Shown here piece by piece: positions 6,642 to 43,358 of a DNA stretch of 64,000 nt; positions within the stretch are counted from its first letter, which is position 1, and each line of letters begins with the position of its first letter. A program made the position numbers and the translations under genes. Under the pieces are notes generated by a model. The model had not been told where the DNA came from. It saw only the letters and a list, made by a program, of their open reading frames with translations, and searched no databases. This DNA is from Nocardioidaceae bacterium (GTDB taxonomy: Bacteria; Actinomycetota; Actinomycetes; Propionibacteriales; Nocardioidaceae), in NCBI GenBank assembly GCA_018672315.1, contig CP076053.1, forward strand, positions 124,001 to 188,000, read 5' to 3'.

Positions 6642-6647
6642 AGACTA
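6642..6647 (-). promoter_or_regulatory. candidate leaderless -10 element of uvrB
   Basis: TAGTCT sits 6 bases before the uvrB ATG, where transcription would start on the ATG itself. Its TAG is also the miaA stop codon, so coincidence is possible. This is the least certain member of the set of sixteen. Confidence 0.35.
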
Positions 6648-7568
6648 CGAGCGACCACCGACGATCCAGGATGCTGCCTGGTCAGCCGCCTCGGGGTGGT
6701 CGTGGGGCAGCCAGGTGATGCGGGGGTCCTTGCGCCACCAGGCGAGCTGGCGGCGGACGAACCGTCTGGTCGCCGTCGCCGTGTCGGCCTGCGCCTGCTC
6801 CTCGGTCAGTGTCCCGTCGAGCTGGTCCACCGCCTGCCGGTAGCCGATCGCCGCGGCCGCCGTACGCGACTCCCGCAGCCCGCGCGCGAGCAGCGACTCG
6901 ACCTCGTCGAGGAGTCCGGCGCGCCACATCGCGTCCACCCGCTGCCCGATGCGGTCGTCGACGACTTCGCGAGGGATGTCGATGCCGATCTGCACGACGC
7001 CCTCGAGCGCGTACGCCTGCCGCGGCAGCGTGGCGCTGAACGGCCGCCCGGTGAGGGCGATCACCTCCAGCGCCCGGACCACCCGGCGCCGGTTGCCGGG
7101 CTCGATGGCCGCGGCCGCCGCGGGATCGGCGTCGGCCAGGCGGGCGTACGCGGCCACGAGTCCGTCACGGTCGACCTCGGCCTCCACCTCGGCGCGCAGG
7201 TCCGGGTCGGTGCCGGGGAAGGTGAACTGGTCGACGACGGCGCGGTTGTAGAGCGCCGACCCCCCGACGAGGATCGGCGTACGCCCCCTCCCCCGGATGT
7301 CGGCGACGGCGTCACGCGCCCAGGCCTGGAACTGTGCCACGGAGGCCGCCTCGTGCACCTCGAGCACGTCGAGCAGGTGGTGGGGGATGCCGCGACGCTC
7401 GGCGACCGGCAGCTTCGCGGTGCCGATGTCCATGCCGCGGTAGAGCTGCATGGCGTCGGTGTTGACGATCTCGCCGTCGAGCCGCTCGGCCAGGTCGAGG
7501 CTCAGCCCCGTCTTGCCCGACGCGGTCGGACCGACCAGCAGCACGACGGGCGGGAGGTGTGTGGGCAC
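6645..7568 (-). CDS. miaA: tRNA dimethylallyltransferase
   Basis: MiaA adds a dimethylallyl group to N6 of adenosine 37 in tRNAs that read UNN codons; MiaB, also in this window, then methylthiolates the product. The 307-residue protein has the P-loop GPTASGKT (about 13-20), the NTDAMQLYRGMDIGTAK segment (about 36-52) with the catalytic aspartate, and the IPHHLLDVLE motif. A GTG start is used, preceded by GAGAGGAT. Downstream comes uvrB with a 9-base gap. The frequent actinobacterial neighbours dapF and hflX are not here. Confidence 0.96.
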   Translation of the reverse strand: MPTHLPPVVLLVGPTASGKTGLSLDLAERLDGEIVNTDAMQLYRGMDIGTAKLPVAERRGIPHHLLDVLEVHEAASVAQFQAWARDAVADIRGRGRTPILVGGSALYNRAVVDQFTFPGTDPDLRAEVEAEVDRDGLVAAYARLADADPAAAAAIEPGNRRRVVRALEVIALTGRPFSATLPRQAYALEGVVQIGIDIPREVVDDRIGQRVDAMWRAGLLDEVESLLARGLRESRTAAAAIGYRQAVDQLDGTLTEEQAQADTATATRRFVRRQLAWWRKDPRITWLPHDHPEAADQAASWIVGGRS

Positions 7569-7640
7569 GCCCGGATCCTCTCAGTGACGTGTCCCGCCGC
7601 TGCGGGTGTGGCGTGCGGCTCGGCTGGACAGGGTGAGCCC

Positions 7641-7904
7641 ATGAGCCGAGACCTGGGAGACCAGCCCGAGCCGACCGTCGATGAGTCGCAACCGCCGCGG
7701 GCACCGGGTCGTCAGGACAACGCACCGACGGCGAAGGACCTCTCCTCACCCCGCGAGGAGCCACCCCTGCCGACGGACCAGCCGCGTGCGGCGCAGACCG
7801 AGGACTCCGCGGTCTCGCAGAAGCTCGGCGAGCAGGAGCGGTCGACCGACGACGAGGGCCCGGACTCCGGCGACCCCGAGGCGCCGTCCGAGGCACCCGG
7901 CTGA
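7641..7904 (+). CDS. small acidic, proline-rich disordered protein A (tandem paralogue of the next gene)
   Basis: This 87-residue ORF (ATG at 7641) encodes a hydrophilic protein rich in Pro, Glu, Asp and Ala, with no Cys, Trp, Tyr or Phe. It is predicted to be intrinsically disordered. I recognise no family. Its first 58 residues align with the next gene throughout: both begin MS-x-LGD, then carry TVD(E/D)(S/T)QPPRA, DLS(S/T)PR(E/D)E, PLP(T/A)DQP(R/K)AAQT and a D(S/T)A(V/I) ending. The tails differ. The conserved pattern in two adjacent copies supports real coding despite the small size. GGGTGA precedes the ATG. It lies on the opposite strand to miaA and miaB. Confidence 0.7.
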   Translation: MSRDLGDQPEPTVDESQPPRAPGRQDNAPTAKDLSSPREEPPLPTDQPRAAQTEDSAVSQKLGEQERSTDDEGPDSGDPEAPSEAPG

Positions 7905-7937
7905 TTGAGATTCGCGGCGAGTGGTGATGCTCACACC

Positions 7938-8171
7938 ATGAGCGAGCTCGGTGACATGCCCGACGTGACCGTCGACGACACCCAGCCACCCCGCGCCGCG
8001 GGCGGCATCGACGCCTCCCCGACGGCACTCGACCTCTCGACCCCGCGCGATGAGGCGCCGCTGCCGGCCGACCAGCCGAAGGCGGCGCAGACACCCGACA
8101 CGGCGATCCCCGACGGGGTGACCTCGGAGCGCCGCATGGAGCAGCAGCGCGAGGCCCTTGGCGACGACTGA
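7938..8171 (+). CDS. small acidic, proline-rich disordered protein B (tandem paralogue of the previous gene)
   Basis: A 77-residue protein starting MSELGDMPDVTVDD at the ATG at 7938. I chose this over an earlier in-frame start because homology with the upstream paralogue begins here. The shared blocks are TVDDTQPPRA, DLSTPRDEAPLPADQPKAAQT and DTAI; after that this copy has a different basic/acidic tail (TSERRMEQQREALGDD). It has no aromatic residue and no transmembrane segment, so it is probably soluble and disordered. A GTGGTGA stretch lies before the ATG. Function is unknown. The two genes are 33 bases apart and look like a local tandem duplication that has diverged. Confidence 0.7.
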   Translation: MSELGDMPDVTVDDTQPPRAAGGIDASPTALDLSTPRDEAPLPADQPKAAQTPDTAIPDGVTSERRMEQQREALGDD

Positions 8172-8190
8172 CGACGACTGAGGACGACTG
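8163..8190. repeat. three tandem 10-bp units with core GACGACTG
   Basis: GACGACTG occurs at 8163, 8173 and 8183 with an exact 10-base period. The first copy holds the last two codons and stop of small protein B (GAC GAC TGA). It fills part of the 42-base gap before the convergent peptidase gene. Probably a slippage-derived minisatellite. Confidence 0.7.
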
Positions 8191-8213
8191 GGGCGTCCGG
8201 GGCCTCTGGGACG

Positions 8214-8939
8214 TCAGAGCCGTTCGATGTCGAGCGCCGTCTCCTCCGCCCGACCGTCGGCGGTCCGTCGCACCGCGTACGCCCCCGCGGAGCGTCGCTC
8301 GGCGTAGGCACCCACCATCTCGGTGCCGCGGTAGAGGACGCCTGCCCCGTCGTCGGTGGCGTAGCCGTCGGGCAGGGTCCCGTCGGCGACCAGCGACTGG
8401 AACAGCGGCCGCCGCTGCTCCTCGGAGTCGTAGTGCACCCCGTTGCTGTACGGCACCAGCCCGAGTCCGTCGGTGACCGGACGCAGGTCGGGACCGTAGG
8501 AGTCGGTCGTGCCTCCTGCGTGCCAGCAGATCGAGCCTGCCGAGACGCCGGTCAGCACGACGCCTCGCTGCCAGGCGGTGCGTACGGCGGTGTCGACGCC
8601 GTGCATGCGCCACATCGCGAGCAGGCCGGCGACCGACCCGCCCCACACCCAGACCACGTCCACGTCGCACAGGTGGGCGGCGACGTCGGCGTGGTTGGGC
8701 ATCGGGAAGAGCTGCAGGTGGCTGGGCTGCCAGCCGCGGGCCGTGGCGGCGGCGTAGAAGGCGCTGATCGTGCTCTGGTCGTCGCCGAGCGCGGTCGCGA
8801 GGAAGCAGACTTTCGGGGTGCCCTCGACGCCGGAGAGGTCGACGGCCAGCTCGGTGAGCGGACCGGGCCGCCACCGCAGCCGAGGGTCGGCGACGGCCCC
8901 GCCGGAGGTGGCGAGGATGGTCGGCTGCTCGGCGGGCAC
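8214..8939 (-). CDS. peptidase E (S51 family) homologue
   Basis: Family S51 serine peptidases (dipeptidase E, cyanophycinase) share a class-I glutamine amidotransferase-like fold. This 241-residue protein has ILATSGGAVADP at the start, the WVWGGSVAGL turn at about 98-107, and the nucleophile elbow GVSAGSICW (about 131-139) with the catalytic Ser. VHYDSEEQ (about 168-175) supplies a candidate His and acidic residue. The length suits cytosolic aspartyl dipeptidases better than cyanophycinase. It begins with GTG 9 bases after the miaB stop with GAGGGG upstream, so it is co-transcribed with miaB. Substrate is not determined. Confidence 0.8.
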   Translation of the reverse strand: MPAEQPTILATSGGAVADPRLRWRPGPLTELAVDLSGVEGTPKVCFLATALGDDQSTISAFYAAATARGWQPSHLQLFPMPNHADVAAHLCDVDVVWVWGGSVAGLLAMWRMHGVDTAVRTAWQRGVVLTGVSAGSICWHAGGTTDSYGPDLRPVTDGLGLVPYSNGVHYDSEEQRRPLFQSLVADGTLPDGYATDDGAGVLYRGTEMVGAYAERRSAGAYAVRRTADGRAEETALDIERL

Positions 8940-8948
8940 GGTGACCCC

Positions 8949-10451
8949 TCAGCCGCAGGGGGTCGTCACGGGAGGCAGCGGCGGCGGGACGCCGATGCCG
9001 GGCAGGCCGAGCGAGACGCCCTGGCCGCCGGTCTCGGGCTGGTCCTGTCGACGCTGCCACGCGTCGCCGGAGCGCGTACGCCGCACCTCGAGCACCGGTC
9101 CGTCGGCGTTGAGGTGGTGGGGCGCGGCGTAGGTGACCTCGACGAGGACGGTGTCACCGGGGCGTACGTCGACCGAGGACCCGTCGGCGTCGACGGGCCG
9201 GAAGTGCACCAGCCGGTTGTCGGGTGCGCGGCCCGACAGCCGCTGGGTGGCGTCGTCCTTGCGGCCCTGGCCCTCCGCGACCATCAGCTCGAGGTGACGG
9301 CCGACCTGCCGCTTGTTCTCCTCCCAGGCGATGTCGTTGACGAGCTCGACCAGGCGCTCGTAGCGGGCCTGCACGACCTTCTTCGGCACCTGGTCCTCGA
9401 GCTCGGCAGCGGGCGTGCCGGGACGTGGGGAGTACTGGAAGGTGAAGGCCTGCGCGAACCGGGAGGCGGCCACGACGCGCATCGTCTCCTCGAAGTCCTC
9501 CTCGGTCTCGCCGGGGAAGCCCACGATGATGTCGGTGCTGATCGCGGCCTCGGGCATCGCGGCACGGACACGGTCGAGGATGCCCAGGAACCGCTCCGAG
9601 CGGTACGAACGGCGCATCGCCTTCAGGACGCGGTCGGAGCCGGACTGCAGCGGCATGTGCAGCTGGGGCATGACATTCGGCGTCTCGGCCATGGCGGCGA
9701 TGACGTCGTCGGTGAACGCGGCCGGGTGCGGGCTGGTGAAGCGCACCCGCTCGAGACCGTCGATCTCGCCGCACGCGCGCAGCAGCTTGGAGAAGGCCTG
9801 ACGGTCGCCGAACTCGACGCCGTAGGAGTTCACGTTCTGCCCGAGCAGCGTGACCTCGGAGACGCCGTCGGCGACGAGGGCCTCGATCTCGGCGAGCACC
9901 TCCCCCGGGCGGCGGTCGCGCTCCTTGCCGCGCAGGCTCGGGACGATGCAGAAGGTGCAGGTGTTGTTGCAGCCGACGGAGATCGAGACCCAGGCGGCGT
10001 ACGCGGACTCCCGCTTCGTCGGCAGCGTGGAGGGGAAGACCTCGAGGCTCTCGAGGATCTCGACCTGGGCCTCCTCCTGGACGCGCGCCCGCTCCAGCAG
10101 CGCCGGTAGGGAGCCGATGTTGTGCGTGCCGAAGACGACATCGACCCAGGGCGCCTTCTTCGTGATGGTGTCGCGGTCCTTCTGCGCCAGACAGCCGCCG
10201 ACCGCGATCTGCATGCCAGGCCTGCCTGCCTTGACCGGGGCGAGGTGGCCGAGGTTGCCGTAGAGGCGGTTGTCGGCGTTCTCGCGCACGGCGCAGGTGT
10301 TGAAGACGACCACGTCGGCCTGCTCACCCGCGGGCGCGCTCGTGTAGCCGGCGTCCTCCAGGAGGCCCGTGAGGCGCTCGGAGTCGTGGACGTTCATCTG
10401 GCACCCGTAGGTCTTGACCTCGTAGGTGCGGGGCTCGGCTGCAGCAGTCAT
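8949..10451 (-). CDS. miaB: tRNA-2-methylthio-N6-dimethylallyladenosine synthase
   Basis: MiaB is a radical-SAM methylthiotransferase that converts i6A37 to ms2i6A37 in tRNA. I start it at the ATG at 10451 ([20 protein letters not shown]), giving 500 residues; the frame stays open further upstream but without family similarity. The N-terminal UPF0004 domain carries three cluster-binding cysteines (TYGCQMN, NTCAVRE, GGCLAQK). The radical-SAM motif is CNNTCTFC (C-x3-C-x2-C, about 163-170). A C-terminal TRAM RNA-binding domain ends the family region at about 465, and a proline/glycine tail of about 35 residues follows. It leads an operon with the S51 peptidase and is divergent from a lipoprotein gene. 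Confidence 0.97.

Positions 10452-42012: not shown

Positions 42013-43358
<1,346 letters not shown>

Follow-up and report, generated by a model that had tools for sequence, protein, structure and literature searches.

Between miaA and miaB: a tandem gene pair and an unnamed family of small acidic, predicted disordered proteins in Nocardioidaceae

RESULTS

The tandem pair at the miaA–miaB locus

The window (the whole stretch of DNA analysed, 64,000 nt) carries two small adjacent open reading frames, P0001 and P0002, on the strand opposite to the flanking miaA and miaB (Table 1). Both anchor genes scored over their NCBIfam cut-offs, so the position given in the preliminary description stands, with the addition that a Peptidase_S51 gene also lies in the interval. 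The two frames at 7641–8171 do contain the three aligned blocks that had been described, namely TVDESQPPRA/TVDDTQPPRA, DLSSPREE/DLSTPRDE and PLPTDQPRAAQT/PLPADQPKAAQT (P0001/P0002), and the proposed composition, acidic and free of aromatic residues and Cys, is likewise found, since F, W, Y and C are absent from both proteins and acidic/basic residues number 21/8 in P0001 and 17/6 in P0002.

Table 1. Features of the locus (positions in the window)
Feature	Position	Strand	Remark
miaA, syntenic anchor	6645..7568	-	TIGR00174 over cut-off; matched in 57/58 genomes
Divergent 72-nt spacer, miaA to P0001	7569..7640		No SigB/SigF-type site found
P0001, first copy, 87 aa	7641..7904	+	Family's acidic tail kept; second G, A and PD absent
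P0001 residues 22-27 (PGRQDN)	7704..7721	+	Counterpart of family motif PGGxDA
P0002, second copy, 77 aa	7938..8171	+	GGxDA and PD kept; two prolines and C-terminal tail absent
P0002 residues 22-26 (GGIDA)	8001..8015	+	Family motif GGxDA
P0002 residues 58-59 (PD)	8109..8114	+	Family motif PD; SQ in P0001
Peptidase_S51 gene, between pair and miaB	8214..8939	-	PF03575, E 1.6e-29
miaB, syntenic anchor	8949..10451	-	TIGR01574 over cut-off

The two predicted proteins are identical at 37 of 57 aligned residues; 10,000 codon shuffles gave 5.5 identities on average and never more than 17, so that their similarity is far above chance. Differences between the copies at codon positions 1/2/3 number 16/7/29 over the 57 aligned codons (dN 0.28, dS 0.87, dN/dS ~0.32), which is the codon-position bias that had been asked after, and GC3 is 0.86 and 0.92 for the two copies and 0.94 for miaA. 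We considered whether the frames might be spurious products of GC-rich DNA, the true gene lying on the other strand or being absent, given that a frame of 582 aa is open on the other strand (7312–9060, −), that single-sequence searches for relatives gave nothing convincing and that one antisense frame of the pair is as similar as the sense frame (37/56 identical, with one stop in copy 1). Since this antisense control fails to separate the strands, the sense of the pair rests on codon positions and on relatives. Against spurious frames stand the codon-position bias of the pair, the syntenic relatives in the same sense (see below) and a pN lower than pS in all 41 close pairs of relatives compared, the pairs not being independent of one another. 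Together with the pattern within the pair, this last finding also bears out the selection suggested by the preliminary description. The spurious-frame reading is already contradicted by these data and we hold it to be extremely improbable; the 582-aa frame is best read as a GC-rich shadow. We regard P0001 and P0002 as confirmed, at the level of sequence, as a real coding tandem pair under purifying selection.

Identification and distribution of the family

Because direct searches were nearly empty, the family was reached through gene order at miaA. As a single sequence, P0001 had no match outside its own genome in a search of 58 genomes. The corresponding search with P0002 (58 genomes, the window's own included) returned three other genomes at E <= 0.01, and these were rejected, two having an internal stop and one (L007) being judged a chance match from its surroundings. 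A two-row profile matched 35 of 341 genomes (E <= 0.05). Apart from the places in the window itself, the place in genome G358 (L011) alone recurs under the seven-row profile described next, the matches inspected beyond it being L026, L028 and L037. A first scan of named genomes confirmed 0 of 84 pattern matches. With miaA as the synteny anchor (57/58 genomes), the region upstream of it was viewed in 30 loci, the window's among them, and small acidic frames divergent from miaA and alignable with the pair were found there. Four such frames, together with L011, P0001 and P0002, made up the first profile of seven rows.

The seven-row profile matched 83 of 341 Nocardioidaceae genomes, in 5 of 26 genera (E <= 0.001). 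With a 30-row profile, 75 of 391 genomes (4/41 genera) were matched in an order sample and 13 of 345 (3/127 genera) in a class sample, all of them within Nocardioidaceae, the family of the window's own genome; homologues in related genomes, which the preliminary description had made its test, therefore exist (83/341 and 75/391). When named genomes were scanned a second time, now with a 12-row alignment, 9 of 81 pattern matches were confirmed, and the named carriers are Marmoricola (a member of Nocardioidaceae) and Nocardioides species and two uncultured Nocardioidaceae. The window's genus is represented by one genome in the samples. All these genome counts are lower bounds, because 14–16 candidates were scored per genome in the two-row, seven-row and 30-row profile searches and because a probable member in genome G006 was missed. 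The latter (L157, 943–1245 in interval coordinates) lies at the same locus and is probably divergent, its score of 23 bits, with strong composition bias, being below the search threshold. Two further oddities are a member whose match is split in two and whose gene may be broken (G134:C105:562-852), and the member of L092, which has no ATG, GTG or TTG before its conserved part and may have an unusual start or a sequence error.

Neither P0001 nor P0002 matched NCBIfam, and against Pfam they gave just two matches, far below cut-off (E 1.4 and 7.7). Thirty members scanned against Pfam, NCBIfam and PHROGs gave one chance-level match (DUF2981, Pfam, E 0.042) and, for NCBIfam and PHROGs, none at E <= 0.1. 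The claim that no described family fits thus holds for these three collections, and no paper in the part of the literature listings consulted names the family. By sequence, the pair belongs to a family without a name, whose proteins are small (median 82 aa), acidic and predicted to be disordered and were found here in Nocardioidaceae only.

Protein features and conservation

All 47 members examined lie on the disordered side of the charge-hydropathy line, lack Cys and have more acidic than basic residues; their median net charge is −23, and 25 of the 47 have no aromatic residue. An AlphaFold model of P0002 built from nine sequences has a mean pLDDT of 67.9, a pTM of 0.19 and one helix, at 59–75. 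Leaving the pair aside, the remaining 45 members share two invariant glycines and an invariant proline, with conservation of at least 87% at another eight positions. P0001 matches 7 of these 11 positions and P0002 8, the other 45 members 8 to 11, and both window copies are atypical members of the family. The proposal of a short linear-motif protein is supported by the occurrence of near-invariant short motifs, as putative binding motifs, in a predicted disordered background.

The gene row in relatives

In 20 of 21 fetched positive genomes the member is located in the miaA–miaB interval and is read in the direction opposite to miaA. The exception is G358, where neither gene occurs within the 10 kb taken; its member (L011, 1498–1743, −; L175, 5636–5881, −) lies away from miaA and miaB, flanked by what we take to be genes for a prolyl-oligopeptidase-like peptidase and a deoxyribose-phosphate-aldolase-like enzyme. 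In 19 intervals from other genomes the 30-row profile found no frame better than E 0.5.

Across 40 intervals (the window's and 39 others; frames GC3-filtered, the window's own pair being absent from that listing), the recurrent families on the pair's strand were F0 (31 loci), F1 (21), F2, which is the pair's family (19), F3 (10), F4 (7) and F6 (4). By Pfam, F0 is MT0933_antitox and F1 NUDIX, and F3, F4 and F6, with two examples of each scanned, had no Pfam match. F3, a disordered family without a name, has a conserved core resembling GGMGVSSERxGxxGPGQ and frequently stands directly after the member (L141 1327–1641, L149 1532–1954, L155 2612–2947; interval coordinates here and for F4 and F6). 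F4, also unnamed and disordered, has an ENAETSLDQPS-like end (L141 93–353, L150 333–572, L156 88–468), and F6, unnamed and acidic, has a DTGTxY...GExxxTPxD-like end and precedes the NUDIX gene (L141 378–575, L149 491–694, L155 1691–1888).

In 45 member loci, which are the best-scoring ones with an available stretch and not a random sample, the preceding recognised gene was NUDIX in 27, MT0933-like in 15 and not detected in 3, and an F3 gene came next after the member in 19; two rows in this gene-order tally are weak (F3 in L071, F4 in L130). The distance to the preceding gene was an exact 4-nt overlap in 13 of 42 loci and at most 60 nt in 33 of 42, the overlap counts depending on the choice of start codons, which was made by proximity to where the profile begins. 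Overlaps of 4 nt point to co-transcription and coupled translation, and their frequency here suggests that the row is a single operon whose translation is coupled.

The company of MT0933-like genes raises the question of whether the family forms part of a toxin–antitoxin-like module with the MT0933-like protein. Pfam PF14013 (MT0933_antitox) takes its name from the antitoxin type of Rv0909. The two kinds of protein are alike in being small and hydrophilic and are direct neighbours in relatives, the MT0933-like gene standing directly before the member in 15 of 45 loci, and Rv0909–Rv0910 offers the precedent of a tested toxin–antitoxin pair (PMC2781298). They differ, however, in that neither P0001 and P0002 nor the 30 scanned members match PF14013; moreover, no Rv0910-like toxin gene was recognised among the recurrent families that the comparison of frames in the intervals gave, an MT0933-like gene is missing from the examined stretch in 12 of the 45 loci, and the window's copies stand without one. 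We consider such a module very unlikely.

A stress-type promoter motif at the locus

Six promoter patterns were tried in the intervals, one of them of SigB/SigF type. This motif, G[GT]TT-N13-17-GGGTA[CT], was present within the leading 600 nt in 7 of the 40 intervals, where shuffling gave 0.12 on average and 2 at most; the bare -10, two SigH/SigE-like and two sigma-70-like patterns had no clear enrichment in the 40 intervals. Since 5 of the 7 motif-bearing intervals belong to genomes with no match to the pair's family, the motif goes with the locus and not with the family gene. Among member loci it was found in 10 of 42 (32 being without it), always on the operon's strand and never on the other, and 6 of these 10 hits come from one genus, so that they are not independent; that in L091 falls inside the NUDIX frame. 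In this analysis the motif occurred 7 times in 119,430 strand-bases inside intervals and 3 times in 515,600 outside. The 42 loci are the above 45 minus L011, which is not at the miaA–miaB locus, L072 and L073, and the genomes of the last two had no motif in the other interval set (as L136 and L137).

In form the motif agrees with promoters reported for SigB homologues of Streptomyces coelicolor, of which GTTTCC-N13-GGGTAT and GTTTGC-N14-GGGTAC are examples (PMC8346170). We infer that a general-stress sigma factor of SigB/SigF type drives the row in at least some species. At the window's pair, the 72-nt spacer included, the pattern search found no such site; in the window's genome two SigB/F/G factors scored over cut-off. 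One exact match to the pattern lies elsewhere, at 42787–42811 (+), and matches in the window are no more than expected by chance.

Duplication and the reduced row in the window's genome

P0001 and P0002 are sisters in the tree (support 97/92, and 98% of 200 bootstrap trees, from few columns), on long branches, from which it is most likely that the duplication arose in this lineage. Second copies close to the first also occur in L089 and L128. At the 11 conserved positions P0001 departs at four (the second G, A and PD) and P0002 at three (two prolines and the tail glutamate), never at a common one. As disjoint sets are expected by chance about 1 time in 5 (35/165), we do not claim subfunctionalization of the pair. 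The preliminary description had the copies share about 58 residues and then diverge; the shared part stands (37/57), whereas the tails are not simply divergent, P0001 having kept the C-terminal tail glutamate of the family and P0002 having lost the tail. A GACGACTGA-like repeat at 8160–8190 of the window runs across the P0002 stop codon and is a possible cause of that loss.

The two copies are the sole recognised members of the row at the window's locus, the MT0933-like and NUDIX genes being gone; away from this locus the genome has one MT0933-like gene, and its best-matching NUDIX relative of this type scores weakly (E 9e-6). That the row has shrunk here to two copies of the family gene is the best explanation. 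It is conceivable, and in our judgement unlikely, that decay has gone further and that the pair is a relic of the operon, two copies drifting with little function left. The lost genes, the long branches and the low number of conserved positions in both copies would fit such decay. The dN/dS of ~0.32 between the copies, the two intact frames and the retention of every conserved position by at least one copy, which is not significant alone, argue against it.

DISCUSSION

The analyses presented here lead us to suggest that the pair's family supplies a general-stress operon with a disordered accessory protein that bears short motifs, a reading to which we give about an even chance of being correct. 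In relatives the gene lies mostly in a row divergent from miaA, behind an MT0933-like gene, a NUDIX gene or both, and often before another gene for a disordered protein. We propose that this row would be expressed as one operon with coupled translation, under the SigB/SigF-type factor in at least some species, and that its product may be a soluble disordered adaptor in which a variable acidic linker separates two short motifs, GGxDA and PD(E), that would bind a partner during stress. Because several genomes, the window's included, have the protein with no NUDIX gene detected beside it, the partner cannot be the operon's NUDIX enzyme alone. Among the close relative pairs dN/dS is only moderate, with a median of 0.54 and a highest value of 0.89, which we count against the adaptor.

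The main rival is that of a bulk protectant akin to hydrophilins or LEA-like proteins, in which a hydrophilic, charged, proline-rich composition would shield the cell in drying or osmotic stress with no specific partner. The family is, like these proteins, hydrophilic, predicted to be disordered and probably stress-linked, and the composition and predicted disorder of the 47 members, the hydrophilic low-complexity families F3, F4 and F6 and the MT0933-like gene that share the interval, and the stress-type promoter motif at the locus would all suit a protectant. The simple composition rule for hydrophilins asks for Gly above 6% and hydrophilicity above 1 (measured here as minus GRAVY), and just 21 of the 47 members have this composition: P0001 does (Gly 0.07; hydrophilicity 1.53), whereas P0002, at a hydrophilicity of 0.85, falls outside. 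Moreover, the family has fixed motifs, and invariant residues at fixed positions exceed what composition needs. We therefore rate bulk protection as a serious contender that is still rather unlikely.

For the adaptor reading, a model of how such a protein could work is CrsL (MSMEG_5890/Rv3489), a disordered CarD-binding protein of 5.7 kDa that is reported from many actinobacteria and has a conserved region (residues 20–45) folding into two helices (PMC12709188). It is likewise a small disordered actinobacterial protein and sets a precedent for folding on a partner in stress adaptation. In contrast to the widespread CrsL, the pair's family was matched in Nocardioidaceae only (3/127 class-sample genera), and CrsL serves here as an analogy, which does not amount to evidence of kinship.

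Finally, we offer a speculation that is quite unlikely to be right. On this view the miaA–miaB interval of Nocardioidaceae would encode a stress unit specific to the lineage. As many as four unrelated disordered families, each with its own conserved short motif, would be produced in coupled fashion with the MT0933-like protein and the NUDIX hydrolase and would form a disordered scaffold or condensate holding these enzymes and clients in stress.

Small disordered proteins are easily overlooked by annotation, and this family could be reached through gene order alone. Within a single bacterial family it proved frequent; individual residues are conserved in it, and it is linked to a gene row of stress-like character. 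It may therefore offer a tractable case of a bacterial short-motif protein and, for environmental actinobacteria, a candidate new component of the general stress response.
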